From assembly GCA_947561585.1 (NCBI GenBank), contig CANNZV010000502.1, forward strand, positions 726,454 through 790,453: DNA of 64,000 bases, in the 5' to 3' direction. The notes below the pieces were generated by a model that was given only the letters and a program-made list of their open reading frames with translations, ran no database searches and was not told the origin of the DNA. Both the position numbers and the translations under genes were made by a program. The first letter of the stretch is position 1, and each line of letters starts with the position of its first letter. Positions 11,982-62,500 of this stretch are shown here, piece after piece. Origin of the DNA: Caprella mutica (Eukaryota; Arthropoda; Malacostraca; Amphipoda; Caprellidae).

Positions 11982-14900
11982 TCATTTCTCTTGAGGGGTT
12001 GTTGCTAAAACCATTTCAGGGAAAAGTTCCTCGAGTATTTGGTCGCATAGAATGTAAGTAAGTTGTTTATTCAGTAGTGGGTGTTGGAAGAGGTTGACTA
12101 CCAAGTTACAACCCTCCTTGTACCCATCGTCATCCAAGAGAATCCTAGTGAACCAAGGAGGGAGCAGTGCTAGCACGGCAGCACGTAGCTCCAACTCACG
12201 GCGCCGTCTTTGAGGGGAAGAACGGACAGGAAAATCCTCCACAAGAGCTTCTTTGAGGACATGAGTGAGCTTCACAAGCCTCTTGGGGGTTATTGACGAG
12301 GGCAACTTCTTTCTGATGAACCAAACGATGGCTGCCTCAACTGTGGCACCCACGACGGCATTAAGAGCAATAAGCCACCGTACGGCTCCCAGGGAGATGC
12401 CGAAGACTCTGACACCGACATACATCAGAGTCTCTACTATACCACCACCCACAAACTGAGCAGGGGGAGGGGGGTTAACTGGGAGTGATGTGGAGGGGGG
12501 ACATGGGGGAAGAGAGCGGAGGTTATCTTCATAGACAGTGGACAGGAGGGGATAAATCTCACTGCTCAGTGACTCTGAAGCTTCCTCCGCCTCCTCCAAT
12601 GAATTGTTTTCACTCTTGCAATCTCCGTCTGCCAAGGAGGTCCTCAAGAACCTCCCTATGAACTTCTCCAAGTGCTGTCCTCTCTCTTTCACTAGTTTTC
12701 TTGGCACGTCTCGTATCAACCTGCCGAGTGAAGCGTCCGGTAGGAATGAAGTGGTGAATTCATCCTTGGATTTCAGGAAAAGAAACAGCAGTTGAGACTT
12801 ACGGAGGGCGGGCGTCTGTAAGAGTTTCTGTAGATACTCTTCAAAAATCTGCCTCCGTGTAATCATGAAGTCACTTGCGTGGCTGGAGGTGAACAAAGAG
12901 CGCCGGGAGGGCAATGTGTTGTACTGGAATTCTCCGTGGAACTCTGTAAGTTTGCTCTCCAGGATATAAAACTCGTGAAATCTTCTAAGGACTTCCCAAT
13001 GGGTGTCTTCGGAGTTATTATCCCCCGACACATCTATTCTGGTGACATCTATGACGAAGAAGTGAGTCATCTTGCTAGGTAGGTTGGGGTCCGGTACATA
13101 GTCGACTCTGGGGATGGTTATCCGCCATGCACTCAGGTCACGGTAACTACCTGATGCCAGTCCTTCCAACCCACCATGGGGCCCATGGGGAACAGGGGTG
13201 GGTGTCCCTTCCTCCTGTAGATACAAAAACATTAAAAATTGGAATACAGGTAAATAAAAACAACAGAAATTAATAAACACATATTAGCTACCTACCAAAA
13301 TAGTAAATCAAAGTAAATATTTTTCATTCAAAATTTCATCACAAAGTATTGAAGAATTATCACCATTTCAATATAAATTTAAATTTGTACTCATTCTTAA
13401 AGCTAGTTGCTAATAAGTTACCAGAAAATAAGTACCCGAGCAACCTCAAAATTCAAGTCATTTAAAATCATTTCACAATAACATTAAACCAGAGACAAAT
13501 AAGCAGAAATGAATACCAAAGCAACAGGCGATTAAACTTAGAAAAGATGCAAAAAAGTCGTGATGAATAAGGAAAATAATGAATTTGAAAATTAGGATAG
13601 TTTGCCATGCAAAATCAGTACATCTCGTTTTCTATTAAAGATTCTTTTGGAGGGGAGACTGAACAGATAACACGGACACCAGGTAAAAAAATACTCTTCA
13701 TACCTATAGAAGAAAATGAAGAGTTGGGATTGAAGTTGTTACCTAACTCAAACTTGCAATTGAAAATCTCACCAGTGCTATATGACGAATTAATAAATAA
13801 GGTTATTATAAGTGACATATATCAGGGGAAGTTCTGAGTTATCGGACGGTTCCACATTTTCGAGCATATAAGATAAAAAATTTATTTCTAATTATTGTTA
13901 AAAAAAACTATTAAATTATAAATTAGTCTGTACACATAAACCTTCTAATGGTCGAAAATGTGAAACCATCCAATAACTTGAAACATAAACTTTAAAGTAT
14001 TTAACTAATTTTAGTAGAAGAGACAACAATTAGCTAATATATTATTGGTAATTAGAAAAATGGGGCAACTTGAGAGAGATGAGTAAATGATTTAATTACA
14101 GTTGAACAATTTATGTTAGTAAAAGTCATACCCGTGTTAGTAAAAGTCATACCCGTGTTAGTAAAAGTCATACCCGTGTTAGTAAAAGTCATACTAGTGT
14201 TAGTAAAAGTCATACTCGTGTTGGTAAAAGTCATACTCGTGTTGGTAAAAGTCATACTCGTGTTGGTAAAAGTCATACTCGTGTTGGTAAAAGTCATACT
14301 CGTGTTGGTAAAAGTCATACTTGTGTTGGTAAAAGTCATACTCGTGTTGGTAAAAGTCATACTCGTGTTGGTAAAAGTCATACTCGTGTTGGTAAAAGTC
14401 ATACTCGTGTTGGTAAAAGTCATACTCGTGTTGGTAAAAGTCATACTCGTGTTGGTAAAAGTCATACTCGTGTTGGTAAAAGTCATACTCGTGTTGGTAA
14501 AAGTCATACTCGTGTTGGTAAAAGTCATACTCGTGTTGGTAAAAGTCATACTCGTGTTGGTAAAAGTCATACTCGTGTTGGTAAAAGTCATACTCGTGTT
14601 GGTAAAAGTCATACTCGTGTTGATAAAAGTCATACTCATGTTGGTAAAAGTCATACTCGTGTTGGTAAAATTCATACTCGTGTTGGTAAAAGTCATACTC
14701 GTGTTGGTAAAAGTCATACTCGTGTTGGTAAAAGTCATACTCGTGTTGGTAAAAGTCATACTCGTGTTGGTAAAAGTCATACTCGTGTTGGTAAAAGTCA
14801 TACTCGTGTTGGTAAAAGTCATAATCGTGTTGGTATGTCATACTCGTGTTGGTAAAAAGTCATACTCGTGTTGGTAAGTCATACTCGTGTTGGTAAGTCA

Positions 14901-17900: not shown

Positions 17901-20900
17901 TATACAGAGTCAACAAAGAACAAACAAAATTAGAATTTCCATTCTTTTTAGTAAATTACAACAAATCAGTCAATAAGAAAATCACTTGTAAAGGGAGAGG
18001 TTTTGGGGGGGGGAGTATACCCAGGCAAGACGGATTTATTCCTGGGATATTCCCGTATTATCCCAGGGATCAATCTTCCTTCAATAGGATAATCCCTTAA
18101 TATCCCAGGAGTAAATCCTTCTTGCCAGTGTAGAGTGCCTTGCTAGGAGTAATACCTACTTGCTTCTACTTGGAGAGCTGTCAAGATGAATGATGAATTA
18201 GAAAATGATATTAGGATGTTTAAATTTTAAAGCAGGAGAAATAGTTTAACTAAATTGACTTATTGGTGGAAATAAGGACTAGATATGATGAACAGGATTA
18301 TAAAACTATTACTAGGGTAAGTTACGAATTATCGGTCAGTTCCACATCTTCAGTAATATAAAGAAAAAACGATATAATTGTTAATTATATCGTTTTTTCT
18401 TATACGACCAAAGATGTGGATCTGATCGATAATTTGTAACTTAACCTACCTAGAAATCAATTGGTGGAAAAAATTTTATCAAACTGTAGTCAGTTTGACC
18501 CAGAATTATAAAACATTTCTTTAAATTAGGATCTAGCTAATTACTATTATATATTCTTTTTTTAGATAGCTAGTAACTAAATGGAAAACTAATCAACTTT
18601 TTAAGTAAAAAACATAGCTAATTACTAATGAGATATATAATATTAACAAATAATTAGATTAAATATTTCACAGGTAAATCCCACCTGTTGGATGCCTTGT
18701 GAGTAATTTGTGAACTTCTAGAGCCACACAGGTGAGCAAAGTACTGGAAAAGATAATAAATTAGGTTAGGTCTCGAGTTATTGGACTGTTCCACATTTAT
18801 GATCATGAGAAACAATTTATCTTTAATTGTTATTTAATTCTTTTTTATTCAAATAAACACTAAATTATATCTTAGCTAATAAATTTCTATATTTAAAATC
18901 TGAATTTTCTTACAATAGAACAACATAGCTAGCTATTGGTTATTGGTTACTATTATACTATCAATTTATATTATCAATCAAATATAATTGTTACATCAAT
19001 GCTAATTTTTTGTAAAGAATGTAATTTGTTTCTGCCTATTGCAAAAATTCAATTTGTTATGTAAAAATAAAATAGTATTCCAAATAAAATAATTTAGCAA
19101 CTAATTTCTCCATATTATAATTACCATAAAATGTCAGTAATTGAATGTGAAGCCAACAAACTTCATCTTACTAGACTTCATCTTACTAGACTTCATCTTA
19201 CTAGACTTCATCTTACTAGACTTCATCTTACTAGACTTCATCTTACTAGACTTCATCTTACTAGACTTCATCTTACTAGACTTCATCTTACTAGACTTCA
19301 TCTTACTAGACTTCATCTTACTAGACTTCATCTTACTAGACTTCATCTTACTAGACTTCATCTTACTAGACTTCATCTTACAAGACTTCATCTTACAAGA
19401 CTTCATCTTACAAGACTTCATCTTACTAGACTTCATCTTACTAGACTTCATCTTACTAGACTTCATCTTACTAGACTTCATCTTACTAGACTTCATCTTA
19501 CTAGACTTCATCTTACTAGACTTCATCTTACTAGACTTCATCTTACTAGACTTCATCTTACTAGACTTCATCTTACTAGACTTCATCTTACTAGACTTCA
19601 TCTTACTAGACTTCATCTTACTAGACTTCATCTTACAAGACTTCATCTTACAAGACTTCATCTTATTACTCACCATGTGACTATTTAAGAAGAGGGGCAG
19701 GTATTCTCTTTCTAACAGGTTGTACGCATACTCATAAGCTTGGAAAAGAGGTCTGGTGGTTCGTAACTTGACTATGGCTGATGCTTCGCTGTGAACCACT
19801 GAAAGAAAAAAAATAGTTAGCTTTTTGATGGGTCTGTATATTCTGCTAATAAGCTATAGCTACTGAAAATAAATTTTTAGTTCAAATTTCTCTTCAATTT
19901 TAGTTTACTTCTAAAGTTCTAGTATAAAATAAAATAAGAGAAATGTAAATTTTGTAGTTGGGTCAATAAGAACTTTTTCTGCCAATTAGCTCTAGCTAAC
20001 TACATGCATTTAAATATTTCGCAGACAATCTCTTCAGAAACAGAAAGCCTAGGTAGATCAAATATATAAATATTAAGAAGTCTGGGACGATATGCCAAAT
20101 AGCTACTAATTTCAATGTCATTAGCTACTAATTTTGTTTTACTATTATGGTAAAGACTCTGGTATCTTCTATTATTTATTAATTAAAAAACTGGAATCCC
20201 TAGGGTGAATTTTAAAATATTAAAACTTTGATGCAATTTTCTACATTACGTCGAAAATAATAAACTTGAAGGCTGAAGCATATCTCACTGTCTCGTATTT
20301 GAGTCACTACGTCAGGAGGGAAGGGCAGCTTGTCAGGAGCACCGGGAGCCATGTAGGAGTGGTAGAGGTCCAACGCCTCGCTGTGAAGCTGCTGTAACTC
20401 TGAAGAACTCAATTCAGGGTCCAGAATGTGCCGATTGAAGTCCTCTGAAAAAAAGTCAATATTAGCTATACCTTTTAAATATATTTTATAGATTCCAATG
20501 CAAAGATAATTTAGGATGATATTTTGGCTCAATTATTCTCTTTTCAGATAAACTTCAGTTACCAACATATAAAAATGTAAATCCTGCTACACCAAAAAGA
20601 AATTGATTTCCTTTTCCATTTCTCAAGTAACATTACCCATCAGTTACATATGTAAAACATCAGACAAAAACTAACCAACTGAAAGACAGAACTGTAGAAT
20701 GTTGATAGCTGATTCTTCTTTGAGGAATGTGTGGAAGAGATAAAGCAACGTTTGGTCCTTCAAAACAGCTGAGAGATTACTGCGTATGCTCGAGTTCCTG
20801 GGATGCGTGTTAACGGATGCAAAGTTTTTCAAGAAATGCACTTCCTCCAATTCATTTTCAGTGGCAACATCTGGCTCTCTGGTGGGGGAAACTTTCTGGG

Positions 20901-23900
20901 GCATTGAGTAAGGATTATTTGGACTGTTTTTATTGAGGAGAAGCATATTAACGTGATTCATCCTCTTCTCCATTTCTTCTTGCTGCTCAAGGTAGTTTGG
21001 ATTAATTATAAGAAGGAAGAGTAGGTTCACAGTGTCTGGTTCTGCAAAGAAATCCATAGCTTGAAGTAATAAGAAACGCCCCAACAGTTCTTTGAGAAAA
21101 CTGTCAATGACATTACTGTTTTGATATTTATTTGGCAAGAGGTAAGGCTTCACGCCAGCAATCAGAGAGCGTATGTACTGCGCCTCCGCCTCCCTGGAAT
21201 GTAAAGCCGGATGAAGCCAGCCGGCTTTCTTTGTGTATTCCAACACTCCTGCCTCGACTCCACCAATGACCCTCACCCTTCTGCCCCCCTCCACATACTG
21301 ATCCAAGTGACTGACCAGTGAAGGGACGAGGCGATCTGTAATGACTTTAGTCAGATCTACCTCCTGAAGTCTTGCAAAGAGCACACAGCAAGCGTATCTC
21401 AGGACGTATCTGATTTCATCCGCCAGCTGGTCATGCATAGAGAACTCCCTGTACCAACTGTAAACATGCTCATCTAAGATCAGATTGAGAAGCTGAAAAG
21501 AAAAAGAGAGAATAAATGAGTTAACAGAACAAGTTAGCTACTAATTTGGGCAACAATTTGTCTTATTTCTAATTAAAATAACAATTAACCAAAATAAAAT
21601 TTAATGTTATTGATAGCCAACAGTCTCAGCTACAAAACTATCACATCAGTAAATTATACCACCATAAGTAATTTAAAGATATTTTAAATCAGAAATGCAG
21701 CTTTATGAAAAAAAAGCCAATAAAGCAAGGTAAACTAAATGTCTTTTCATACAATGAAGGGAAATAATTCATTTTAGTAATTAGCTTCTCTAGTCGGAAG
21801 CTACCTAGCCAGTTATTCTAGTAAGTGGTAACTCTAATTAAAAATAACTTCTTCTGACCTCTTCCACAGCTTCGTCTACACATTTGGGGACCTTGACATG
21901 GATGTGTGGGTGGTGTGGTCCAGGCACAGCCCCTGCAAGAGAGGAAGGTAGTTGTCGAGAGCACTCTTCTCCCCCGCAAACAGAGCAAGACCTTCTTAGC
22001 TCTCTCGACTGAGATCCAGAATCTGCATCAGCTCCAAGGAACAGTACCAGGAGATTGGGAATTTGTTTTCCTTCACTGTGAAGTTCAAAATAACATAAGA
22101 AAATACATCAGCAGAATTGAATGAACTATGATATAGCTAGCTAAGATTTGAAAGATTTTTGTTATTTTTATGACATGAAACTATTTCACAAAATATGAAA
22201 TACCTAAGTAGGTACTAATGAATAAGCATAAGGAAATCCATTTTATTGCAGTATCAGATTTATATCTATTTAAAATAGATTGAAAATTAAAGGGAATTCA
22301 ATTTTTGCATTGTTTTGCAGAGAAAAAATGTGAGTCAATATTTGATAACAGTTAGTTACAGTCACAGAGAATATCACTTGTTTGCGAGAACACTGTCATA
22401 ACTTCAAAAAAGCTGTTTTTCAGCAGAGGTATATTAGTACATGTAATGTACGTACATTTAATGGTATATCGTTAGGACATTTAGCCTCTCTAGCGGTACA
22501 TTTTAAAGTTTCAATGATGATTTTTTACCAAAATAATCAGCATTTTATGATTTATATGTCCATATGGATAACTCTAAAATACATGTTTTTGTGTTTATGA
22601 CGTTGTTGCTGCAAACAAGCGATATGTAAATAATGTAAATAACAAATAAATAAAATAATAATAAATAATGAAACAGCTTCATTACCTGAACAAGAAGTAT
22701 GGAATCAACACTCCAGCTGAGTAGGCACCAATGATAACCAAACTGTAGAGGATGCTGAAAAATAAACGGAAAAATTAGAAAGTTAAAAGAGTAGGTAGCT
22801 AATGAAAAGAGAAGGTAGCATATTGTAGCTAATTAGCTACAATATGAAAAATTTCCAATGAGCATTAATATAAACTTTGATGGCTATTGGCTTCACTGTG
22901 TAGATATCAGATTTATCTTGTATGATGATATTTAGGAACTGTAACACATCTACCTATCTATAATTGGTGTAAGTATTTTGATATCCATAAGTCCCATGTT
23001 CCAGAGGCTGGCAAAATACAAGGTAATTTTTGAACCAATTTTGACAATTATTCGAAGTAAAGCTAATTTTGCCTCATTTTTGTAGATTTCATGCAAAATT
23101 TAACATGGCCACTCTGCATAATGAGTCTCCTGACTCTCGGAGATTTCAATTTGAGAGAGTTACTCTCTGACTCTCTCAGCAGATTCAGAATCTCCTGTAG
23201 CTAAATTAATGGCAACATAGGAATTAATTCAAAATCTCCCACAGCTAAATTAATGGTAACATAGGAATTAATTCAAAATCTCCTGCAGCTAAATTAATGT
23301 TAACAGGAATTAATTCAAAATCTCCCGCAGCTAAATTAATGGTAACATAGGAATTAATTCAAAATCTCCTGCAGCTAAATTAATGTTAACAGGAATTAAT
23401 TCAAAATCTCCCGCAGCTAAATTAATGGTAACATAGGAATTAATTCAAAATCTCCTGCAGCTAAATTAATGTTAACAGGAATTAATTCAAAATCTCCCGC
23501 AGCTAAATTAATGGTAGCTAACATAAGAATGGTAACATAGGATCCTGCAGAGATCAACAATATCTAGACTAAAATTGGGCTCAGATTTGTCTCAGAGAGT
23601 CTTGGAAAAAATGTTCCATATTTTATAGACTGGTAACATGAGAACCCAAGTAAAATAATATGGCTCATAAACTCTCCATTTGTCTCTCCAAAAGAAACCA
23701 AATTTCTCTTCGAAATGATCAAATTATCATAACATTGTAGCATAGGAGAAAATAGATATTTCTCGCCATTTACAATTGAAGGGCTCAAAATAACTGTGAC
23801 AAAGACACAAATTCGCCATTAAAATGGCAAGTTTGGACATGCTTTATTACCAGGATGGGAACATAGGAATTATTGAATTAACTCAAATTTGTAAGCCAAT

Positions 23901-33940: not shown

Positions 33941-34165
33941 ACCGAGAAAGTTATGGTGGGGCAATAGGAGATCATGTCGGGCCTGCTCTCAATTTTTTAT
34001 ATGGCCCTGCCATAACTTTCTCTCTTAATCTTCTATGGCTCCACCATAACTTTCCCCTTTTAATCTTCTACGGCCCCACCATAACTTTCCCCTCTCAATC
34101 TTCTACGGCCCCACCATAACTTTCTCTCTCAATCTTCTATGGCCCCACCATAACTTTCTCTCATA
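33941..34165. repeat. Foldback-type repeat cluster 1
   Basis: One forward unit (GAGAAAGTTATGGTGGGGC) is followed after about 50 bp by five inverted units of about 34 bp (GGCCCCACCATAACTTTC, TCTCAATCTTCTAT). The same unit makes clusters at 47746, 50808 and 53360. Confidence 0.85.
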
Positions 34166-35867: not shown

Positions 35868-38800
35868 TGTGTGCTTGAACGTGTAATTACACTCACTGTA
35901 TCTCCATGCTAGAACGTGTAACGTGTAATTACACTCACTGTATCTGCATGCTAGAACGTGTAACGTGTAATTACACTCACTGTATCTACATGCTAGAACG
36001 TGTAACGTGTAATTACACTCACTGTATCTCCATGCTAGAACGTGTAACGTGTAATTACACTCACTGTATCTGCATGCTAGAACGTGTAACGTGTAATTAC
36101 ACTCACTGTATCTGCATGCTAGAACGTATAACGTGTAATTACACTCACTGTATCTGCATGCTAGAACGTGTAACGTGTAATTACACTCACTGTATCTGCC
36201 TGCTAGAACGTATAACGTGTAATTACACTCACTGTATCTGCATGCTAGAACGTGTAACGTGTAATTACACTCACTGTATCTGCATGCTAGAACGTGTAAC
36301 GTGTAATTACACTCACTGTATCTGCATGCTAGAACGTATAACGTGTAATTACACTCACTGTATCTGCATGCTAGAACGTGTAACGTGTAATTACACTCAC
36401 TGTATCTGCCTGCTAGAACGTATAACGTGTAATTACACTCACTGTATCTGCATGCTAGAACGTGTAACGTGTAATTACACTCACTGTATCTGCATGCTAG
36501 AACGTGTAACGTGTAATTACACTCACTGTATCTGCATGCTAGACCGTGTAACGTGTTATTACACTCACTGTATCTGCGTGCTAGAACGTATAACGTGTAA
36601 TTACACTCACTGTATCTGCATGCTAGAACGTATAACGTGTAATTACACACACTGTATCTGCATGCTAGAACGTGTAACGTGTAATTACACTCACTGTATC
36701 TGCCTGCTAGAACGTATAACGTGTAATTACATTCACTGTATCTGCATGCTAGAACGTGTAACGTGTAATTACACTCACTTTATCTACGTGCTAGAACGTC
36801 TAACGTGTAATTACACTCACTGTATCTACGTGCTAGAACGTATAACGTGTAATTACACTCACTGTATCTACGTGCTAGAACGTATAACGTGTAATTACAC
36901 TCACTGTATCTACGTGCTCTAGAACGTGTAACGTGTAATTACACTCATTGTATCTGCGTGCTCTAGAGCGTATAACGTGTAATTACACTCACTGTATCTA
37001 CGTGCTAGAACGTATAACGTGTAATTACACTCACTGTATCTACGTGCTCTAGAACGTATAACGTGTAATTACACTCACTGTATCTACGTGCTAGAACGTA
37101 TAACGTGTAATTACACTCACTGTATCTACGTGCTCTAGAACGTGTAACGTGTAATTACACTCATTGTATCTACGTGCTCTAGAACGTGTAGCGTGTAATT
37201 ACACTCACTGTATCTACGTGCTAGAACGTATAACGTGTAATTACACTCACTGTATCTACGTGCTCTAGAACGTGTAACGTGTAATTACACTCATTGTATC
37301 TACGTGCTCTAGAACGTATAGCGTGTAATTACACTCACTGTATCTACGTGCTAGAACGTGTAGCGTGTAATTACACTCACTGTATCTACGTGCTCTAGAA
37401 CGTATAACGTGTAATTACACTCATTGTATCTACGTGCTCTAGAACGTGTAGCGTGCAATTACACTCACTGTATCTACGTGCTCTAGAACGTATAACGTGT
37501 AATTACACTCACTGTATTTACGTGCTAGAACGTATAACGTGTAATTACACTCACTGTATCTACGTGCTCTAGAACGTGTAACGTGTAATTACATTCACTG
37601 TATCTGCGTGCTAGAACGTATAGCGTGTAATTACACTCACTGTATCTACGTGCTCTAGAACGTGTAACGTGTAATTACACTCACTGTATCTACGTGCTAG
37701 AACGTATAACGTGTAATTACACTCACTGTATCTATGTGCTCTAGAACGTGTAACGTGTAATTACACTAATTGTATCTACGTGCTCTAGAACGTGTAGCGT
37801 GTAATTACACTCACTGTATCTACGTGCTAGAACGTATAACGTGTAATTACACTCACTGTATCTACGTGCTAGAACGTATAGCGTGTAATTACACTCACTG
37901 TATCTACGTGCTCTAGAACGTATAGCGTGTAATTACACTCACTGTATCTACGTGCTAGAACGTATAACGTGTAATTACACTCACTGTATCTACGTGCTCT
38001 AGAACGTGTAACGTGTAATTACACTCACTGTATCTGCGTGCTAGAACGTATAGCGTGTAATTACACTCACTGTATCTACGTGCTCTAGAACGTATAGCGT
38101 GTAATTACACTCATTGTATCTACGTGCTAGAACGTATAACGTGTAATTACACTCACTGTATCTACGTGCTCTAGAACGTATAGCGTGTAATTACACTCAC
38201 TGTATCTACGTGCTCTAGAACGTGTAGCGTGTAATTACACTCACTGTATCTACGTGCTAGAACGTATAACGTGTAATTACACTCACTGTATCTACGTGCT
38301 CTAGAACGTGTAGCGTGTAATTACACTCACTGTATCTACGTGCTAGAACGTATAACGTGTAATTACACTCACTGTATCTACGTGCTCTAGAACGTGTAAC
38401 GTGTAATTACACTCATTGTATCTGCGTGCTCTAGAGCGTATAACGTGTAATTACACTCACTGTATCTACGTGCTAGAACGTATAACGTGTAATTACACTC
38501 ACTGTATCTACGTGCTCTAGAACGTATAACGTGTAATTACACTCACTGTATCTACGTGCTAGAACGTATAACGTGTAATTACACTCACTGTATCTACGTG
38601 CTCTAGAACGTGTAGCGTGTAATTACACTCACTGTATCTACGTGCTAGAACGTATAACGTGTAATTACACTCACTGTATCTACGTGCTCTAGAACGTGTA
38701 ACGTGTAATTACACTCATTGTATCTACGTGCTCTAGAACGTGTAGCGTGTAATTACACTCACTGTATCTACGTGCTCTAGAACGTATAACGTGTAATTAC

Positions 38801-41800
38801 ACTCACTGTATCTACGTGCTAGAACGTATAACGTGTAATTACACTCACTGTATCTACGTGCTCTAGAACGTGTAACGTGTAATTACACTCACTGTATCTG
38901 CGTGCTAGAACGTATAGCGTGTAATTACACTCACTGTATCTACGTGCTCTAGAACGTATAGCGTGTAATTACACTCACTGTATCTACGTGCTAGAACGTA
39001 TAGCGTGTAATTACACTCACTGTATCTACGTGCTCTAGAACGTATAGCGTGTAATTACACTCACTGTATCTACGTGCTAGAACGTATAGCGTGTAATTAC
39101 ACTCACTGTATCTACGTGCTCTAGAACGTGTAACGTGTAATTACACTCACTGTATCTACGTGCTAGAACGTATAGCGTGTAATTACACTCACTGTATCTA
39201 CGTGCTCTAGAACGTGTAACGTGTAATTACACTCACTGTATCTACGTGCTAGAACGTATAGCGTGTAATTACACTCACTGTATCTACGTGCTAGAACGTA
39301 TAACGTGTAATTACACTCACTGTATCTACGTGCTCTAGAACGTGTAACGTGTAATTACACTCACTGTATCTGCGTGCTAGAACGTATAGCGTGTAATTAC
39401 ACTCACTGTATCTACGTGCTCTAGAACGTGTAGCGTGTAATTACACTCACTGTATCTACGTGCTAGAACGTATAACGTGTAATTACACTCACTGTATCTA
39501 CGTGCTCTAGAACGTGTAACGTGTAATTACACTCATTGTATCTGCGTGCTCTAGAGCGTATAACGTGTAATTACACTCATTGTATCTACGTGCTAGAACG
39601 TATAACGTGTAATTACACTCACTGTATCTACGTGCTCTAGAACGTATAACGTGTAATTACACTCACTGTATCTACGTGCTAGAACGTATAACGTGTAATT
39701 ACACTCACTGTATCTACGTGCTCTAGAACGTGTAGCGTGTAATTACACTCACTGTATCTACGTGCTCTAGAACGTATAACGTGTAATTACACTCACTGTA
39801 TCTACGTGCTAGAACGTATAACGTGTAATTACACTCACTGTATCTACGTGCTCTAGAACGTGTAACGTGTAATTACACTCATTGTATCTACGTGCTCTAG
39901 AACGTGTAGCGTGTAATTACACTCACTGTATCTACGTGCTAGAACGTATAACGTGTAATTACACTCACTGTATCTACGTGCTCTAGAACGTATAACGTGT
40001 AATTACACTCACTGTATCTACGTGCTAGAACGTATAACGTGTAATTACACTCACTGTATCTACGTGCTAGAACGTGTAACGTGTAATTACACTCACTGTA
40101 TCTACGTGCTCTAGAACGTATAACGTGTAATTACACTCACTGTATCTACGTGCTAGAACGTATAACGTGTAATTACACTCACTGTATCTACGTGCTCTAG
40201 AACGTGTAACGTGTAATTACACTCACTGTATCTGCGTGCTAGAACGTATAGCGTGTAATTACACTCACTGTATCTACGTGCTCTAGAACGTATAGCGTGT
40301 AATTACACTCACTGTATCTACGTGCTAGAACGTATAGCGTGTAATTACACTCACTGTATCTACGTGCTCTAGAACGTATAGCGTGTAATTACACTCACTG
40401 TATCTACGTGCTAGAACGTATAGCGTGTAATTACACTCACTGTATCTACGTGCTCTAGAACGTGTAACGTGTAATTACACTCACTGTATCTACGTGCTAG
40501 AACGTATAACGTGTAATTACACTCACTGTATCTACGTGCTCTAGAACGTGTAACGTGTAATTACACTCATTGTATCTACGTGCTCTAGAACGTGTAGCGT
40601 GTAATTACACTCACTGTATCTACGTGCTAGAACGTATAACGTGTAATTACACTCACTGTATCTACGTGCTAGAACGTATAGCGTGTAATTACACTCACTG
40701 TATCTACGTGCTCTAGAACGTATAGCGTGTAATTACACTCACTGTATCTACGTGCTAGAACGTATAACGTGTAATTACACTCACTGTATCTACGTGCTCT
40801 AGAACGTGTAACGGTAATTACACTCACTGTATCTGCGTGCTAGAACGTATAGCGTGTAATTACACTCACTGTATCTACGTGCTCTAGAACGTATAGCGTG
40901 TAATTACACTCATTGTATCTACGTGCTAGAACGTATAACGTGTAATTACACTCACTGTATCTACGTGCTCTAGAACGTATAGCGTGTAATTACACTCACT
41001 GTATCTACGTGCTAGAACGTGTAGCGTGTAATTACACTCACTGTATCTACGTGCTAGAACGTATAACGTGTAATTACACTCACTGTATCTACGTGCTCTA
41101 GAACGTGTAGCGTGTAATTACACTCACTGTATCTACGTGCTAGAACGTATAACGTGTAATTACACTCACTGTATCTACGTGCTAGAACGTATAACGTGTA
41201 ATTACACTCACTGTATCTACGTGCTAGAACGTATAACGTGTAATTACACTCACTGTATCTACGTGCTCTAGAACGTGTAACGTGTAATTACACTCACTGT
41301 ATCTGCGTGCTAGAACGTATAGCGTGTAATTACACTCACTGTATCTACGTGCTCTAGAACGTATAGCGTGTAATTACACTCACTGTATCTACGTGCTAGA
41401 ACGTATAGCGTGTAATTACACTCACTGTATCTACGTGCTCTAGAACGTATAGCGTGTAATTACGCTCACTGTATCTACGTGCTAGAACGTATAACGTGTA
41501 ATTACACTCACTGTATCTGCGTGCTAGAACGTATAGCGTGAAATTACACTCACTGTATCTACGTGCTCTAGAACGTATAGCGTGTAATTACACTCATTGT
41601 ATCTACGTGCTCTAGAACGTATAGCGTGTAATTACACTCACTGTATCTACGTGCTCTAGAACGTATAACGTGTAATTACACTCACTGTATCTACGTGCTA
41701 GAACGTATAACGTGTAATTACACTCACTGTATCTACGTGCTCTAGAACGTGTAACGTGTAATTACACTCACTGTATCTGCGTGCTAGTACGTATAGCGTG

Positions 41801-44800
41801 TAATTACACTCACTGTATCTACGTGCTCTAGAACGTATAGCGTGTAATTACACTCACTGTATCTACGTGCTAGAACGTATAACGTGTAATTACACTCACT
41901 GTATCTACGTACTCTAGAACGTGTAACGTGTAATTACACTCACTTTATCTGCGTGCTAGAACGTATAGCGTGTAATTACACTCACTGTATCTACGTGCTC
42001 TAGAACGTATAGCGTGTAATTACACTCATTGTATCTACGTGCTCTGGAACGTATAGCGTGTAATTACACTCACTGTATCTACGTGCTCTAGAACGTATAA
42101 CGTGTAATTACACTCACTGTATCTACGTGCTAGAACGTATAACGTGTAATTACACTCACTGTATCTACGTGCTCTAGAACGTGTAACGTGTAATTACACT
42201 CACTGTATCTACGTGCTAGAACGTGTAGCGTGTAATTACACTCACTGTATCTACGTGCTAGAACGTATAGCGTGTAATTACACTCACTGTATCTACGTGC
42301 TAGAACGTATAACGTGTAATTACACTCACTGTATCTACGTGCTCTAGAACGTATAACGTGTAATTACACTCATTGTATCTACGTGCTCTAGAACGTATAG
42401 CGTGTAATTACACTCACTGTATCTACGTGCTAGAACGTATAACGTGTAATTACACTCACTGTATCTACGTGCTCTAGAACGTATAACGTGTAATTACACT
42501 CACTGTATCTACGTGCTCTAGAACGTATAGCGTGTAATTACACTCACTGTATCTACGTGCTAGAACGTATAACGTGTAATTACACTCACTGTATCTACGT
42601 GCTCTAGAACGTGTAGCGTGTAATTACACTCATTGTATCTACGTGCTCTAGAACGTATAGCGTGTAATTACACTCATTGTATCTACGTGCTCTAGAACGT
42701 ATAGCGTGTAATTACACTCACTGTATCTACGTGCTAGAACGTATAACGTGTAATTACACTCACTGTATCTACGTGCTAGAACGTGTAGCGTGTAATTACA
42801 CTCACTGTATCTACGTGCTAGAACGTATAGCGTGTAATTACACTCACTGTATCTACGTGCTAGAACGTATAGCGTGTAATTACACTCACTGTATCTACGT
42901 GCTAGAACGTATAGCGTGTAATTACACTCACTGTATCTACGTGCTCTAGAACGTATAGCGTGTAATTACACTCACTGTATCTACGTGCTAGAACGTATAG
43001 CGTGTAATTACACTCACTGTATCTACGTGCTAGAACGTATAGCGTGTAATTACACTCACTGTATCTACGTGCTCTAGAACGTATAGCGTGTAATTACACT
43101 CATTGTATCTACGTGCTCTAGAACGTATAGCGTGTAATTACACTCACTGTATCTACGTGCTAGAACGTATAACGTGTAATTACACTCACTGTATCTACGT
43201 GCTCTAGAACGTATAACGTGTAATTACACTCACTGTATCTACGTGCTCTAGAACGTATAACGTGTAATTACACTCACTGTATCTACGTGCTCTAGAACGT
43301 ATAGCGTGTAATTACACTCACTGTATCTACGTGCTAGAACGTATAACGTGTAATTACACTCACTGTATCTACGTGCTCTAGAACGTATAGCGTGTAATTA
43401 CACTCACTGTATCTACGTGCTCTAGAACGTATAGCGTGTAATTACACTCATTGTATCTACGTGCTCTAGAACGTATAGCGTGTAATTACACTCACTGTAT
43501 CTACGTGCTAGAACGTATAACGTGTAATTACACTCACTGTATCTACGTGCTAGAACGTGTAGCGTGTAATTACACTCACTGTATCTACGTGCTAGAACGT
43601 ATAGCGTGTAATTACACTCACTGTATCTACGTGCTAGAACGTATAGCGTGTAATTACACTCACTGTATCTACGTGCTAGAACGTATAGCGTGTAATTACA
43701 CTCACTGTATCTACGTGCTCTAGAACGTATAGCGTGTAATTACACTCACTGTATCTACGTGCTAGAACGTGTAGCGTGTAATTACACTCACTGTATCTAC
43801 GTGCTAGAACGTATAGCGTGTAATTACACTCACTGTATCTACGTGCTAGAACGTATAGCGTGTAATTACACTCACTGTATCTACGTGCTAGAACGTATAG
43901 CGTGTAATTACACTCACTGTATCTACGTGCTAGAACGTATAGCGTGTAATTACACTCACTGTATCTACGTGCTCTAGAACGTATAGCGTGTAATTACACT
44001 CATTGTATCTACGTGCTCTAGAACGTATAGCGTGTAATTACACTCACTGTATCTACGTGCTAGAACGTATAACGTGTAATTACACTCACTGTATCTACGT
44101 GCTAGAACGTGTAGCGTGTAATTACACTCACTGTATCTACGTGCTAGAACGTATAGCGTGTAATTACACTCACTGTATCTACGTGCTAGAACGTATAGCG
44201 TGTAATTACACTCACTGTATCTACGTGCTAGAACGTATAGCGTGTAATTACACTCACTGTATCTACGTGCTCTAGAACGTATAGCGTGTAATTACACTCA
44301 CTGTATCTACGTGCTAGAACGTGTAGCGTGTAATTACACTCACTGTATCTACGTGCTAGAACGTATAGCGTGTAATTACACTCACTGTATCTACGTGCTA
44401 GAACGTATAGCGTGTAATTACACTCACTGTATCTACGTGCTAGAACGTATAGCGTGTAATTACACTCACTGTATCTACGTGCTAGAACGTATAGCGTGTA
44501 ATTACACTCACTGTATCTACGTGCTCTAGAACGTATAGCGTGTAATTACACTCATTGTATCTACGTGCTCTAGAACGTATAGCGTGTAATTACACTCACT
44601 GTATCTACGTGCTAGAACGTATAACGTGTAATTACACTCACTGTATCTACGTGCTAGAACGTGTAGCGTGTAATTACACTCACTGTATCTACGTGCTAGA
44701 ACGTATAGCGTGTAATTACACTCACTGTATCTACGTGCTAGAACGTATAGCGTGTAATTACACTCACTGTATCTACGTGCTAGAACGTATAGCGTGTAAT

Positions 44801-45086
44801 TACACTCACTGTATCTACGTGCTCTAGAACGTATAGCGTGTAATTACACTCACTGTATCTACGTGCTAGAACGTATAGCGTGTAATTACACTCACTGTAT
44901 CTACGTGCTAGAACGTGTAGCGTGTAATTACACTCACTGTATCTACGTGCTAGAACGTATAGCGTGTAATTACACTCACTGTATCTACGTGCTAGAACGT
45001 ATAGCGTGTAATTACACTCACTGTATCTACGTGCTAGAACGTATAGCGTGTAATTACACTCACTGTATCTACGTGCTAGAACGTAT
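35868..45086. repeat. 9.2-kb satellite of 42/44-bp units with higher-order repeats
   Basis: About 215 units. Each contains the perfect palindrome GTGTAATTACAC, then TCACTGTATCTACGTGCT, an optional extra CT, and AGAACGTATAACGT. Units without CT are 42 bp, those with CT 44 bp (making TCTAGA). The first kilobase has only 42-bp units with TGCATGC or similar. The middle mixes the two types, often alternating. The right end is a 552-bp higher-order unit repeated at least three times (equivalent points at 43451, 44003 and 44555). Open frames of 14-residue period exist on both strands and are by-products. No spacers or associated genes. Confidence 0.97.
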
Positions 45087-47285: not shown

Positions 47286-47440
47286 ACGGCTAAAATCCGA
47301 GTTATTGGACGGTTTCACGTTTTCAATTATATAAAAAATATATAACAACTATATATTATTTAACTTCTTTTTTATTTTTAATACATTATTCTTATATGAT
47401 CGGTAAAGTGGAACCGTCCAATAACTCGTAATTCACCCCA
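47286..47440. mobile_element. MITE family A, left neighbour of the foreign-code region
   Basis: Left AAATCCGAGTTATTGGACG, right CGTCCAATAACTCGTAATTC then ACCCC. It shows that sequence typical of the host contig reaches to within 20 bp of the frame at 47461. Confidence 0.75.
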
Positions 47441-47460
47441 AGTTATCTAGTAGACTCTAC

Positions 47461-47694
47461 GTTTTCTTTGTCGTTTTCTTTTTATTAGGGTCAATAAGAT
47501 ACCAATTGTTGCTAAACCTTTTTAGGAAATACGTCATTTCAACAGAGGGTTTGCGCAAGCGGTTGGTTCGTACAGAGCTGATGCAATGGCATACCTATTG
47601 TCATACAAAGATAGAATTAACATCTTCGATTCTACTTGATAAAGCATATAATGAAGTAAAAGAGGTTGACTTACATAATCAATACACATGGTGA
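47461..47694 (+). CDS. Coding-like frame of 77 codons, possible 5' part of the recoded gene
   Basis: Open from 47461 to a TGA at 47692-47694. The translation has protein-like content (IRYQLLLNLFRKYVISTEG, LRKRLVRTELMQWHTYC). The frame itself has no TAA or TAG, so it does not show which code it uses. It ends in TGA and lies 500 bp upstream of the recoded frame on the same strand, with a foldback cluster between. An upstream TTTTTATTAG could act as an acceptor. It may be a separated exon of that gene or an unrelated remnant; no family was recognised. Confidence 0.3.
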   Translation, partial: VFFVVFFLLGSIRYQLLLNLFRKYVISTEGLRKRLVRTELMQWHTYCHTKIELTSSILLDKAYNEVKEVDLHNQYTW

Positions 47695-47745
47695 TGGTAA
47701 TTCTGATGTTTGGTGAATCAACTTATTCAGCAATTTATCCTGGTA

Positions 47746-47895
47746 GAAGGTTATGGTGGGGCCATAGAAGATTATGAGAGAATGTATGGTGGGGCCACAG
47801 CAGATTAGGAGAGAAAGTTATGGTGGGGCCATAGAAGATTATATGTAGAACCCTTTAATCTTCTATGATTAAAGGGGTCTCCACCATAGCGAAAA
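47746..47895. repeat. Foldback-type repeat cluster 2
   Basis: Three forward units of GTTATGGTGGGGCCATAG, AAGATTATGAGAG, followed by the partly inverted TTTAATCTTCTATG and GGTCTCCACCATAG. Confidence 0.8.
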
Positions 47896-48198
47896 TTAGG
47901 ATTGACAATATTCTATGCATGATGGACAACATAAATAGATATTCTCATTATTACTTTATAACTTATTCTATCATTCAAAGAATTATAAATTTCAATAATG
48001 TTTGACATTTTATAAACACGTCATCTGAAATAACTCCATAATAAATAAAGTATCGATTATTTCGCTAACATTTGTGAATGAAACATTATAATAAATAGAA
48101 CCTGTATTCTATATACTGAAATAATATACAAAATATCACCTAATATCAATAAAAAATGCTATTTCCAAGATGTTCCAAATGCTATTTACATAAAAATC

Positions 48199-49977
48199 AT
48201 GGATTTTATGATTATGAAAGAAGAGAAGAAGACGAGGGAATCATAAGTTGTTACAAATCTTTTAACGATGTTAAATGGAAGAGAGGAATAATGGTGGAAT
48301 CTAGCCCAAATATTACAAGAGATTCTCCTTATTTATAATGACGATGAAGCTTCTTAAAGCAAAGTGTTTCTTACCTAGCATTTGTGCCATGTGCAACCCT
48401 AGGCCATGGAATTTCTGTTCAATCTCTCACTTCAGTCGGTGACAACCCTGGAAAACTGTGATATGAGTTTGCTGGCTTTGAAAATCATCGAAAACGTCAT
48501 TCTTTACGATAGACAGTTCGTTCAGAGTATGGTTGAACGAAGTGGTTAAATAATGTAAGATTTATATCTTCTTGCTGCTCAAAAAGAATGTTCTGCAGAT
48601 CAAGAATTCGCAATAGGTATAATACTCTCAATCGCAGACTCAAAATGGCCAAATGTTACAGAAGCTTTTGGGAAAATTCTGTTAAACATTTTAGAAGATT
48701 TACCCGATTGCTTCCATTAAAACGATTCACTGGAAAAAATCCTGGATTTCCTAATCCTTCAAATGAAAAATGGAATGACGATTTAAGTTAATATTTTTTC
48801 TCAAATTTTATTAAAGTATGACATTATTATTAACTAATGTGTTATGTATATGGATCAAGAACAATCTATTTGCAGACTCCTCAAGAAAATAGTTGACTTT
48901 TATTCAATTTTGCTTCTTAAAGTGTTCACCCAGAAACCAGAACAGGGACAACCTTCCAATGAACAGCTTTCTCGAGTTATATCTTCCATCGTGTCACAAT
49001 TTTAGGAAAATGATCTAATGAATCCGAATTCTCCTTCTTTTATTCGATTCACTTAAGCCAGCAAAATTCTTTAATATCTTTTCGAGCAAGATTCAGCAGC
49101 AATTGAATTAGTTATTCAGGAAATCGATCTGAAGAAACTTGTCTCCAGCGCATTGGATCCACAAGTGACTATGGATGCGAAAACTAAAATATCGAAGTTT
49201 TTCAATACTTCCATTCCTCATCTATAAGTAAATCATGTGACAGAAATATTGCTAGTAGTTGTTGAAGAAACTAATCGATATAACTGTGAGAAATCAATGA
49301 ATTTGGCACATTTTAAGATCATAAGCGGTTTACTCATGACGGTTCTGAACCATCAACATGGTGATTTGGTAGCCGATCTGGAGAACCATGATGGTTCTAA
49401 TATGATCCTGAGTTTCTTAAAGAGCATGTGGATTGTATCAGAGAAGTTTTAACTGTTAACCATGTAGGTTATAACAGTTGGCAATATTAACAACAAGATA
49501 TTTCGAAATCAATTTTTAAAATTCGGATTCTTCGAAAGCATTGATCCAGAAAAACTTGAACGAAGCACCAAGTTGATGTTTTAGGTGAAAGCGCTGGTTT
49601 TGCTGAACAAGATACATCTTATGCCTGATTGTACATCCATGAGAAACCTTGTGATTTCCGAACATCTAAATGAATATTTCGACTGGTTGACTATTCTGCA
49701 CAACACCTTGCAAGAACAAGTTTAAAATCACTAATGGAAGGAAAATGTTTTTGAAGAACAGTTCTGTCAATTTGACTGCAGAATCGGGCTTAGAAAGCAA
49801 ATTGAATTCTATCTCGAATTGATGTTATTTTAGTAAACGAAGACAGTTGAACCAATTGAACATTGCTAGAATATTATGATAGACAGTGAACAAAATTCAT
49901 AACTTGAAATCCAGAGAAACTTGGAGGACGCTGGCGAACCTTTATACATCGGACAACTCTTTGAAGAAATTGAATGA
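48199..49977 (+). CDS. Gene in a reassigned genetic code (TAA/TAG sense, TGA stop)
   Basis: One uninterrupted frame of 592 codons. It contains 16 TAA and 7 TAG and no TGA until the TGA at 49975-49977; upstream the frame is closed by TGA at 48079-48081. The first ATG is used as start. TAA/TAG sit among 30 CAA/CAG codons, and reading them as Gln gives plausible helices, for example LALKIIENVILYDRQFVQSM, TEILLVVVEETNRYNCEKSM and MRNLVISEHLNEYFDWLTIL. The Leu/Ile-rich helical pattern suggests an ARM/HEAT-like solenoid; no family is recognised. Such a code is known from ciliates, diplomonads and ulvophyte algae; peritrich ciliates read the same codons as Glu. The neighbouring host genes use TAA, TAG and TGA as normal stops. 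The +1 frame continues coding-like sequence (LNEIFIRDLEKEEELDSRK) to a TGA at 50054-50056, which suggests a one-base shift near 49915-49920. Transfer into the host, or an assembly join with a symbiont, are both possible. Confidence 0.7.
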
Positions 49978-50056
49978 AATTTTTATCCGTGATTTAGAAA
50001 AAGAAGAAGAATTGGATTCGAGGAAAATACCTATTACATATTTCTAAGCTAAATGA

Positions 50057-50807
50057 ATTCTACTTAAATTATGACACACAGCTAATTAGGAGTGCTGATA
50101 TTAATGATAATGGTTAAAGTAAAGTGCATACAGAGTCATGAATGCATTGTGCCAATCTATAATGAATTATGGCACTATTTGCATACAGAGATCTGTGTCG
50201 ATCATTATAGATTGATCTGTGAATGATCTGAGCACATAAATAGAATGTGCGAATAAATTACACTAATGATAAGCATAATTCGAGACGTTTCTTTCAAATA
50301 ATTATATACATGTGCTATTTTATATAGAAGGGGGAAAATATGAGATCATGTTTTTTTCATATGGTACCTATAGCTATAAACGAATTAAATACGGGATAGA
50401 AGGATGAAAAATTAATTAAATTATTATAAATTATAATTATTCCTGTTTAATTCACATATGGTAAATTGTACTTTAATCTAAATATCACATTTTAATTGTT
50501 TTGTGTTATTTGCTGATGTGGTATATTTTATTATCGATTAATAAGATTCTTTTAATATAATCCAGTTGTGTTTATTATCACATATAATGTATTGTTATTT
50601 AATTTGCGTATAATAATGTGTAGCATAAATCAATTAGATATTTCTATAAAATATTACTATACATTTCTGTATGGAATAAAAGGAATAGTTATTAAATTAT
50701 ATTATATATGTGTATAAAGAACATATGATTAAAATCTTTTTCGGTGAAACTGTTTAGTTATTTAAAAATAACTAAACTTTATATTTCTTGATATAAGTTT
50801 ATACCAA
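50057..50807. other. AT-rich spacer, no gene seen
   Basis: After the recoded frame the composition falls to very AT-rich, with repeated GATCTGTGTCGATC / GATTGATCTGTGAATG words at 50150-50240. No frame is open in either code. Confidence 0.45.
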
Positions 50808-51126
50808 GAGGGAAAGTTATGGTGGGGCTATAGAAGATTGAGAGGGAAAGTTATGGCGGGGCCATAGAAGATTATAAAGAGAGAAATTTATGGTGGGGCC
50901 ATAGAAGATTAAGAGAGAAAGTTATGGTGGGACCATAGAAGATTAAGAGGGAAAGTTATGGTGGGGCTATAGAAGATTACAAAGAGAGAAAGTTATGGCG
51001 GGGCCATAGAAGATTACAAAGAGAGAAAGTTATGGTGGGACCATAGAAGATTAAGAGGGAAAGTTATGGTGGGACCATAGAAGATTAAGAGGGAAAGTTA
51101 TGGTGGGACCATAGAAGATTAAGAGG
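50808..51126. repeat. Foldback-type repeat cluster 3
   Basis: Nine forward units of 30-36 bp: GGGAAAGTTATGGTGGGAC, CATAGAAGATTAAGA. No inverted arm is present here. Confidence 0.9.
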
Positions 51127-51242
51127 GGCTAAAGTATACTTTGAATGATAAACTCATACAATTTTGACATTAATTTGAAATCATAAAATAAATGATCATA
51201 GCTTAGGATTTTTTTATTGAAATTAAGAGTCGTTTTATATAT

Positions 51243-51457
51243 AATGTAAGTTGCTAGTTATTGGACGGTTCCACTTTTTCGATCATATAATAAAAAATAT
51301 ATCATAATTATAATCTAAATTTTATTATAATTTGTATCCATGATACCTGGAAGTATCATGGATACCAATCAAAATAAGTGTTAAATGTTAATTACTATAA
51401 TATTTTTCTTTTATGATCGAAAACATAGAACTGTCTGATAACTCGCAACTAACCCTA
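51243..51457. mobile_element. MITE family A with palindromic core
   Basis: Left TGTAAGTTGCTAGTTATTGG, right AACTCGCAACTAACCC. Centre TGTATCCATGATACCTGG, AAGTATCATGGATACC, a close copy of the shared core. Confidence 0.8.
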
Positions 51458-51689
51458 AGCTGCCTCTTTAATTATGATTTATAGCATTAATGATATTCTC
51501 TCTACGTACGTACTTATCACTACGATGTGAATGATGAAAAGCCTTTAGTACGAAAAGCCATTTGGTGTAAAACATTTTAGCATGAATATTATATCAAAGT
51601 CATTTGGTACTTAGCAAATGTGCTGAGTCATCTGCCTCTGAATTGGGAGTGAAAATAGTCATGGTACTGAACATTTTAACATGGTAATG

Positions 51690-53359: not shown

Positions 53360-53546
53360 TAGAGAGAAAGTTATGGTGGGGCCATAGAAGATTGAGAGAG
53401 GAAGTTATGGTGGGGCCATAGAAGATTGAGAGAGAAAGTTATGGTGGGGCCATAGAAGATTGAATAGATGCCACATTTAATTTCTTATGGCCCCACCACA
53501 ACTTTCTTTCTCAATTTTCTATGGCCCCACCATAACTTTCTCCCTG
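53360..53546. repeat. Foldback-type repeat cluster 4 with inverted arms
   Basis: Three forward units (AGAGAAAGTTATGGTGGGGC, CATAGAAGATTG) face two inverted ones (TATGGCCCCACCACAAC, TTTCTTTCTCAATTTTC) across about 20 bp, forming a long hairpin. Confidence 0.85.
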
Positions 53547-59515: not shown

Positions 59516-62500
59516 TTAGTGACCATATGGACTGCAGAATTGGTAAACCAACCTTTGCGATTTTTCAGTCTTTTTTATAATCATTTTATTGTAGTATTGT
59601 CTAATAGAACGAGATAGCTTATCATAGTTCATATTTGGCCTATTTTTCCTCTTTCCCCAAAGGGTGGCTACTTTAACACTGTCCTCAATCTTGAAAATGG
59701 CTTCGTGTCTATCGAGCCAACGAATGCAAGAGCCGTACTTCTTGGGGTTGGCGAGGAGTTCCTTCAAGAATTGCCAGAGATGAATATGTGCCCGTCCTCG
59801 GCCATTGCCGTTAGAACAGACTGGAACAACTTCTTCTTCAGGGTCTGATTCTGAAGAGGAAAACAGAAAACAACTATTAATATTAATAATATTAATTATA
59901 AACAATAATTTATTACGTAATATGTTTATTAATAATAAACTATTCCAAAAAATATATTTCACTGCATTGGAACGATGATCTCATTATGCTAAGAATTCAG
60001 AAAATAGGCCAGAACAATAAAAAGGTAAAGAAAAATTAGTCCGCCCTACAGATAAGTTCTAATTAGCCTAATTATCTAAAGATCAAATACACAATCGAGA
60101 TGAAGAATAAAATTAGCCCTGTCAGGTTAATTAATGTACGAGTTTAATTTGAATATCTTAAAAAACTGGTATTTTCGAGGCTCTGTGGATTAATTTTACT
60201 ATAACAATACAAGCGGTAGGAGCTTTTCTTTTGGAATTTAATATTCATTTCTAGACAGAAGGTTCATTAACAGGTGTTTTTAAAGACAAAAGAAGCTTAT
60301 CCCATAGCAACCAGGTGATATCGGCTTAAAGTTCAAAGTAACAGGTTCTAAGCGTGGTCACATGTACCCTATGTCCTATAATCTCTACTTGTGGTCAGAA
60401 TTACGGTACACTTCAGAAGATTAACTATACTTAATGTATTATAGTCAGGTATAATTGTGGTAACCTTATATCTAGTAATAATGAAACAGTTGGTATCTAG
60501 GCATAAGATTTTAACAGGCGACATAACATAAAGAAGATTAAAAAAAGCGTGAATATTTTGTGTCATACATCACTTACAGCAGACATAAATGTCAATAGAT
60601 CTACTATTGTATTAGCATACGTAGTTAGACAGACAAAGTATGTAGGTATTAATAAGCGTTAACAATATGGCTAGTATGATTCATAACATCAAAATATAAA
60701 TGAATAGATACACAGGACGCAATAGATGACATCAGACTTTAATGAGCTAGCTATTGCCTGTAGCTAAATTGAATGCAACTTGTTAAAACACAGATATAAA
60801 ATTCCTAATAGAGCATTCCAACCATGTATGTATGCACTATGAAACAGAAATATTTCCCTATTGCTGTGGAGAGAAATTCTTTTTGTGATAGTACAATCTA
60901 GAGATAGAAAAACTGAAACAAGCTCCTAGGTTTATAAACAATCTGTGGCCTTGAGTATAGAACCATCTAAAGAGCATTGGGACAACTTGATTCACCTCCC
61001 AAAGTACTCTAGAGCCTATTATTCTTTAGTTAATGTGCTTTGGTCCTTGAATTATCTTTTTAAAGATATTACAGCCCTAAAGCTAAGGATGTCTTTGATT
61101 GAAAAGGTTTTAAACGAACTGACTGCAATGCATTTTACAGATACTTTTTATGTCTGTTGAAAAGAACGAAGAAGCACGTATAACAGATCAGCATGTAGTA
61201 CAGCTATAATATTAATAAGTTCATCTAACAAAGAAACATTCTTAATAAATTCCTTGATTTTGAATATAAAAAAATATTATATGGTGCTAAACGTACTTCA
61301 TGATTTAAAAGTGCAAATATCATCAAGTTGATTGAAAAGAGAATGTAATTCCAAAGAGTAGTGTAAATATGCCTGTAGCAACGACTGTGTCAAGAACTGA
61401 GTTGTGGATTGCACGAGTGACCCTGGAAAAACCCAATATAGTAACAAAGATATAATAGGTGCGATCGGAAATAATAAATAGGACGAAAGTGATTTCTTGC
61501 TGCTGATATTAGCATTTTAATGTCTTTGTATACAAACAAACCCGCTATACATTTTTGCAAGTGACTATGCGTCATCACATGCAATTTTCACAATGACCAA
61601 TTATTTGGCTTACCACGATGATTTGTATAGATGCAATTAAGTGCTGAAATTATCAGGTAATTACGCTACCAGAGCGACATAATTAGATCCAAACAGTGTG
61701 ATAAGTATGCAAATTTCTCTTCTAATGCCCCCTTATCATTTCACGTAATCATTCCAATGGATAAAATAAATATCACCGAAAAACTGCAATCAGCTACTTG
61801 ATAATAGGTGATATTTTCCTTATTCTTATATAAATACGAAGCTGAAGCGAGAACTGAATGCACAACTCGCTGAGTGCACCCGAGCGAGGCTAGCATAGCC
61901 AGAGGCGCGAGCTTAGGCAGGCAAGAGCAACAACAGCAGTACCTACCTACCTAAGGCGACAAGTGAATCACCTTGAAGAGAAACAGCTTTTAGAGGGGGC
62001 GATGCATACCTACATTCAACATCCAAACAACAAAGAACAACGGAGCAACAGTTGCTAAGTTTCGGAACAAAGACCATCGGTTGTATCAAAGTTAAAGGGT
62101 TAGAATTCGATTGCAAACAAAAAGTAATTAAAAAGATCTTAACTATAGTGTTAGTAGATTCGTTAGTAAACAATGGATTTTGTAAACTAACTCACCATCT
62201 GTATCCATCAAATCCTCCTGTTCGATAGTAGTTGGATGTTTGGACACCTCAGACTCCTTGTTCAGACCACGCACTTCGCTAATCACAGATTCGTTGAGGA
62301 ATCCAGTAGGAGTGGCTTCCGAACCAGTGGTTGTGGGAGCATTATCCATCAAGGCAGACACAGTAACTGGTGCAGAAGTTTCCTGATTTGTCGCCTGAAG
62401 GGCTCGACCATCCATGCTAACGTACTTCGCGGATTGCAAAAGAATATCTCCGGAATCAAACCCTATTAGACTCTGGTTCAATTCCTGTTCAGACACCAAT

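Follow-up and report, generated by a model that had tools for sequence, protein, structure and literature searches.

A reading frame with internal UAA and UAG codons and a UGA terminator in a contig of the amphipod Caprella mutica

Nuclear genetic codes in which UAA and UAG (UAR) are sense codons and UGA is the stop codon are documented in several protist lineages, and glutamine is assigned to UAR in some ciliates, hexamitin diplomonads, some oxymonads and ulvophytes, and Amoeboaphelidium (PMC5304391). In Blastocrithidia, UAR specifies glutamate and UGA specifies tryptophan, according to PMC12153298. As regards animals, no UAR-sense gene in a chromosome is described in the titles and opening parts of abstracts covered by our search, preprints and most subscription journals aside. 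The code of Mesodinium assigns UAR to tyrosine and that of peritrichs assigns it to glutamate.

The locus presented here lies in a window of 64,000 nucleotides, by which we mean the whole stretch of DNA that was analysed, within a 797,689 bp contig of the C. mutica assembly (C502:726454-790453; 903 Mb in 7200 contigs). It contains a long frame that has UAR codons in its interior and is surrounded by genes written in the standard code.

Codon usage and coding signature of the recoded frame

The frame and two weaker segments associated with it are as follows.
48199..49977, plus strand: recoded open reading frame of 592 codons and a terminal TGA, with 16 TAA and 7 TAG in frame
48163..48198, plus strand: weak candidate for an N-terminal extension, in frame with the gene
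49886..50017, plus strand: segment in the +1 frame with a weak coding score (15.4 bits)

The codon count bears out the original prediction of a single frame of 592 codons with 16 TAA, 7 TAG and no internal TGA, ending in TGA; the same frame contains 21 CAA and 9 CAG, and its 23 UAR sites are spread from codon 16 to codon 568. UGA is the sole terminator in this one gene, absent internally and present at the end, and tryptophan is encoded by TGG only (six codons). When translated with table 6, the TGA-free frame spans positions 48082-49974 (631 codons), and the remaining five frames across 48199-49977 contain from 9 to 26 TGA each. The GC content by codon position is 0.43/0.24/0.36, and the GC3 of 0.36 falls within the host range of 0.31-0.59. 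The arginine codons comprise seven AGA, six CGA and one AGG, with no CGT, CGC or CGG, unlike in host genes. The best coding segment begins at 48163 under a model built from the frame's own codons and at 48220 under the host codon model. The absence of a frameshift, which had also been claimed, holds as far as can be seen: the score of the +1 segment is comparable to the 12-15 bits of unrelated segments, and this segment is probably due to chance and possibly an alternative C-terminus of the gene.

The period-3 chi-square of the recoded frame is 64.3, and that of 2000 control first-order Markov sequences derived from it has a mean of 5.8 and a maximum of 23.8, the frame thus exceeding 2000 of 2000 controls. 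No TGA-free frame was found among 12,000 frames of these controls. All 532 other stretches of the same length in the window score lower, the next best (59.7) being located near an exon with a PXA domain and a tandem array. In sliding windows of 300 bases, phase 0 is the top phase in 13 of 13 windows with starts between 48201 and 49641, its lead being narrow at 49401, and periodicity is weak in the windows starting at 49761 and 49881, which correspond to the final ~200 bases of the frame. Among the TGA-free frames of at least 300 codons in 171,236 bases (the window and loci L002-L012), it is the longest and the most periodic one with a compression ratio of at least 0.28, a cut-off chosen after the list had been seen; the longer TGA-free frames are tandem arrays. 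The frame scores 60.7 bits with a codon model from four host exon pieces and 208.6 bits with its own codons. Results of our analysis indicate that the frame 48199-49977 is a coding sequence and not a chance opening, and the predicted use of UAA and UAG as sense codons and of UGA as the stop is supported by the codon pattern together with the periodicity.

A TGA-free frame with 15 TAR codons and clear periodicity was also noticed at 61858-62928 (plus strand), antisense to the Pointed exon, which indicates that the antisense of a real exon can imitate a recoded gene. An antisense origin of the frame at 48199-49977 was rejected, as each of the three minus frames contains 33-36 standard stops.

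The original prediction reasoned that random decay of a normal gene would yield TGA and indels as well, and the calculated expectations agree with it: under general mutation TGA would constitute 19-25% of new nonsense codons, and the probability of finding none among 23 is 0.0013-0.0077. A standard-code gene that decayed by C-to-T changes, with CAA and CAG turning into TAA and TAG, is an explanation that we regard as highly improbable. If only C-to-T changes are allowed and host codon usage is taken as the starting point, the absence of TGA among 23 nonsense codons has a probability of 0.19, which would be compatible with decay, but the same calculation from the frame's own codons gives 0.015. 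Decay would require 185-698 substitutions, yet no frameshifts were seen. Moreover, C is not depleted relative to G in the frame (290:321), the His:Tyr ratio is 14:11 as compared to 27:35 in host exons, and CGA is enriched, counter to C-to-T decay. CGA accounts for 6 of 14 arginine codons in the frame. In the four host exon pieces the figure is 3 of 58 (p = 0.0012), and it is 6 of 135 once three HSP70 copies are included (p = 0.00015), both comparisons being post hoc. The marks of a decayed pseudogene, namely mixed stops including TGA and frameshifts, are absent from the frame, in which a single phase is coding over the whole range where the signal can be followed.

Residue read from UAR and the encoded protein

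The TAA:TAG ratio (16:7) is nearly the same as that of CAA:CAG (21:9; p = 1.0), and the CAR:TAR balance of 30:23 is near to the CTR:TTR balance of 20:30 in the same frame. The GAA:GAG ratio (41:8) matches TAA:TAG more poorly, the difference not being significant (p = 0.22), and sequence context at the TAR sites does not separate glutamine, glutamate and tyrosine. Taken as synonyms of CAR, the UAR codons of this gene probably specify glutamine; glutamate or tyrosine may be the residue as well and are less favoured. Tyrosine would account for 5.7% of residues if UAR were read as tyrosine, and glutamate for 12.2% if UAR were read as glutamate.

The original prediction looked to a translation with code 6 as a way to find relatives in protein databases and profile HMMs, and no homologue was found there. 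Among Pfam families none exceeded the cut-off, the two matches to the N-terminal half being weak (E 0.054 and 0.54), and none did so in NCBIfam, where one match (E 0.043) was far below the cut-off. No match was found among PDB sequences, and no relative was found in a protein collection, whose coverage of such proteins is uncontrolled, either among candidates of ~326-1036 aa (7994 scored) or among those of 660-2100 aa (7987 scored). A search of viral contigs, sensitive to close relatives only, also returned no match to the gene. No homologue that would show conserved glutamine columns at the UAR sites was found in Pfam, PDB or the protein collection. The single-sequence AlphaFold2 model of the protein is all-helical, with 32 helices and a pLDDT of 46.5. 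The upper Foldseek matches of this model are a designed repeat protein, importin-alpha and beta-catenin (E near 1e-5), with query TM-scores of 0.19-0.35 among the 50 matches listed. The predicted structure suggests that the protein may be an alpha-solenoid.

Surroundings of the gene and genetic code of the host

The following features of the window lie around the recoded frame.
47290..47441, no strand assigned: left MITE-like inverted-repeat element (repeat families D5, D6)
47745..47842, plus strand: left flanking minisatellite with a 33-34 bp unit
50806..51127, plus strand: right flanking minisatellite with the same 33-34 bp unit
51246..51458, no strand assigned: right MITE-like inverted-repeat element (families D5, D6, I22) with 101-nt arms, 76% complementary
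59516..59980, minus strand: host Ets-domain exon, standard code (PF00178, 9.2e-31)
20671..21537, minus strand: host PXA-domain exon, standard code (PF02194, 1.1e-28), named SNX14 in the original prediction
11982..13283, minus strand: host PX-domain exon, standard code (PF00787, 1e-15)

Repeats flank the gene as had been proposed, with minisatellites and MITE-like elements on both sides. Further arrays of the minisatellite unit lie at 53361-53463 and, in inverted orientation as judged by eye on the consensus, at 34000-34162, and relatives of the MITE-like elements are present at 45735, 46239, 52413 and 53133. If the flanking minisatellite arrays lie outside the insert, the latter is about 2.96 kb long at most. 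Of the neighbours said to use the standard code, the PX and PXA exons on one side of the frame and the Ets exon on the other exceed Pfam cut-offs, while the supposed lipocalin, a 93-aa frame at 460-741, has no Pfam match. A Nexin_C match (PF08628, 2.1e-4) at 11982..13283 is just under the cut-off, and the Pointed match in the window is also under the Pfam cut-off. Left of the gene, a slightly protein-like standard-code frame of 89 aa was noticed at 47425-47694; it was considered as an upstream exon and rejected, having no Pfam match and no firm link to the gene. Minisatellites are numerous in the window, for which Tandem Repeats Finder gives 67 rows that overlap in part, and positions 35878-45086 are occupied by a 9.2 kb tandem array with a 42-bp unit. 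Rfam and ARAGORN (bacterial setting) gave no matches over the window. Further along the contig, standard-code exon-like frames are present at L012:1025-1951 and L004:8540-9289 (both minus strand), the latter resembling a sulfotransferase by eye.

Searches of the 903 Mb assembly at the DNA level and at the protein level (10 candidates scored) match only the gene's own locus. An origin from a viral or mobile-element gene of a protist with a UAR-sense code, inserted in the animal genome, would supply a route of entry, and one long intronless frame between repeat arrays is consistent with it; however, the viral contigs contain no close relative, no transposase, replicase or capsid family was recognized, and the gene is single-copy, so that we consider this origin very unlikely. 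An assembly chimera or contamination, in which DNA of a UAR-sense protist was joined into the animal contig, would account for the isolated code. However, it needs two false joins within a contig of 797,689 bp, enclosing at most ~3 kb that is bounded by MITE-like elements and by arrays sharing one unit, standard-code exons lie further out on both sides, and none of the 53 scored among 353 HSP70 candidates in the assembly has UAR codons. We consider a chimera unlikely.

As to the code of the host, four exon pieces contain no TAR among 40 glutamine codons, partly by construction, since they were chosen as open standard-code frames; a search of the assembly for HSP70 with stops read through is for this reason the fair test. 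In this search (53 of 353 candidates scored), 52 of 55 rows contain no stops. The three remaining ones, all on C1428, contain stops only beyond the natural end, which is a TAA, and the suspicion of UAR sense codons in these genes was rejected, as the sites lie beyond the C-terminus. The unbroken matched part of the three C1428 copies is ~520 residues, with GC3 of 0.31-0.33. The rows, at least 55 with 53 of 353 candidates scored, also reveal a large HSP70 expansion on C385, C751, C1428, C1498, C1826, C2428 and other contigs, with many copies clustered. No second recoded gene was seen in the HSP70 family (53 of 353 candidates scored) or in the 171 kb screened. Two tRNA-Gln sequence patterns gave 28 matches in the assembly, 15 with the TTG and 13 with the CTG anticodon, and none with TTA or CTA, although genes of the latter kinds would match better; ARAGORN found tRNA-Gln(ttg) in 10 of 10 loci examined out of the 15 TTG matches. 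The absence of UUA and CUA anticodons among these matches bears on the host and not on the origin of the recoded gene.

A search of the assembly for the eRF1 N-domain family returned four rows from five candidates. One of them (C629, locus L028) is a canonical eRF1 exon with TASNIKS and two rows (C306) resemble pelota, as judged by eye. The fourth (C385:414546-414887; L029:1423-2706, plus strand) is a divergent eRF1 paralogue, intact and free of introns and 427 aa long, which matches eRF1 from PDB at 3.3e-80 over residues 6-406, has SIKS in place of NIKS, and keeps GGQ and YxCxxxF. NIKS is a part of the stop-reading site of eRF1. The paralogue is written in the standard code (21 CAR, no TAR, terminal TGA) and may be an ordinary diverged retrogene. 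A transposase-like frame, identified by eye, lies just upstream of it.

The presence of this paralogue affects the weighing of a native or domesticated gene whose UAA and UAG are read as glutamine by the animal itself. A second release factor blind to UAA and UAG would replace the normal one, tRNA-Gln(UUG/CUG) would read the near-cognate codons, as tRNA-Gln is able to do with UAR, and UGA alone would stop translation. The frame is intact, its CAR and TAR codons resemble synonyms long in place, and the SIKS paralogue occurs beside the canonical NIKS exon. On the other hand, none of the 28 tRNA-Gln matches carries UUA or CUA, the paralogue is itself a standard-code gene and possibly an ordinary retrogene, translation would end at codon 16 in any place where canonical eRF1 occurs, TAA is the terminator of three HSP70 copies, and no other recoded gene was seen (53 of 353 HSP70 candidates; 171 kb). 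The paralogue raises our estimate for host decoding, the leading rival reading, which we still hold to be rather unlikely, and lowers that for a silent foreign gene from marginally above an even chance to slightly below it. It likewise raises, from a lower level, the estimate for a more specific reading, distinctly unlikely in our view, in which a working animal gene has 23 UAA and UAG codons read as glutamine where SIKS eRF1 replaces the normal one, i.e., a gene- or tissue-restricted code in a metazoan.

Possible origin and comparison with known systems

The explanation we favour, at somewhat less than even probability, is that the gene came from an organism that uses UAA and UAG as sense codons, most likely for glutamine, and terminates at UGA. 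It would have entered the chromosome of a standard-code animal together with at most ~3 kb of DNA and would be silent there. The gene would have been shaped under such a code before its entry into the animal chromosome, where standard-code translation would halt at codon 16; it would thus be silent at the protein level and free of selection. Since TGA and frameshifts are absent in spite of this, the capture would be recent: zero frameshift events in 1776 bases give a calculated bound on neutral divergence of ~0.02 per site, if indels are taken to be one tenth as frequent as substitutions and two thirds of them to shift the frame. Foreign origin is favoured by the confinement of the coding signature to the frame, the agreement of TAA:TAG with CAA:CAG, the lack of TGA among the 23 nonsense codons, arginine codon usage unlike that of the host, the single copy, flanks that contain repeats as well as standard-code exons, standard-code host HSP70, the presence of NIKS eRF1, and tRNA-Gln matches that are all TTG or CTG. 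Against it, neither a donor nor a homologue was found in Pfam, NCBIfam, PDB, the protein collection of uncontrolled coverage, or viral contigs, no second recoded gene was seen (53 of 353 HSP70 candidates; 171 kb), GC3 lies within the host range, and the SIKS paralogue provides a requirement of host decoding. It is also rare for an animal to acquire a single, isolated gene from a protist in undecayed form. Of the original proposal that reassigned-code DNA sits in an animal contig, the recoding pattern and the host surroundings stand, but no donor or homologue has emerged, and SIKS eRF1 leaves room for decoding by the host.

Provided that the gene is foreign and its joins to the contig are genuine, the locus would represent a transfer between nuclear genetic codes, in the form of DNA that an animal copies but cannot read. 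Loci of this kind would escape standard gene finders and may therefore be commoner than known. If the host instead reads the gene by means of a divergent release factor, an animal nucleus would show, for the first time to our knowledge, a restricted deviation from the standard code; our literature search revealed none.

Among known proteins, the predicted product resembles Armadillo/HEAT-repeat proteins in its all-helical fold and in having importin-alpha and beta-catenin among the upper Foldseek matches, and differs from them in the low pLDDT and TM-scores and in the lack of a whole-protein Pfam match and of a PDB sequence match. The C385 paralogue is like eRF1 in its whole-length match (3.3e-80), GGQ and YxCxxxF, and unlike it in SIKS and in being intronless. 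With regard to codes, Blastocrithidia shares UAR sense codons with the gene described here and is insect-associated, whereas in our gene UGA occurs as the terminator only, and all six tryptophans are encoded by TGG. The codes of Mesodinium and peritrichs share with it both the UAR sense codons and the UGA stop, although the peritrich reading would turn the protein very acidic. The closest likeness concerns table 6, in which UAA and UAG specify glutamine: UAR is sense at 23 sites, UGA is the stop, and the TAA:TAG ratio approximates that of CAA:CAG. Unlike the genes of table 6 systems, the recoded gene, with its putative glutamine codons, sits in an animal contig.
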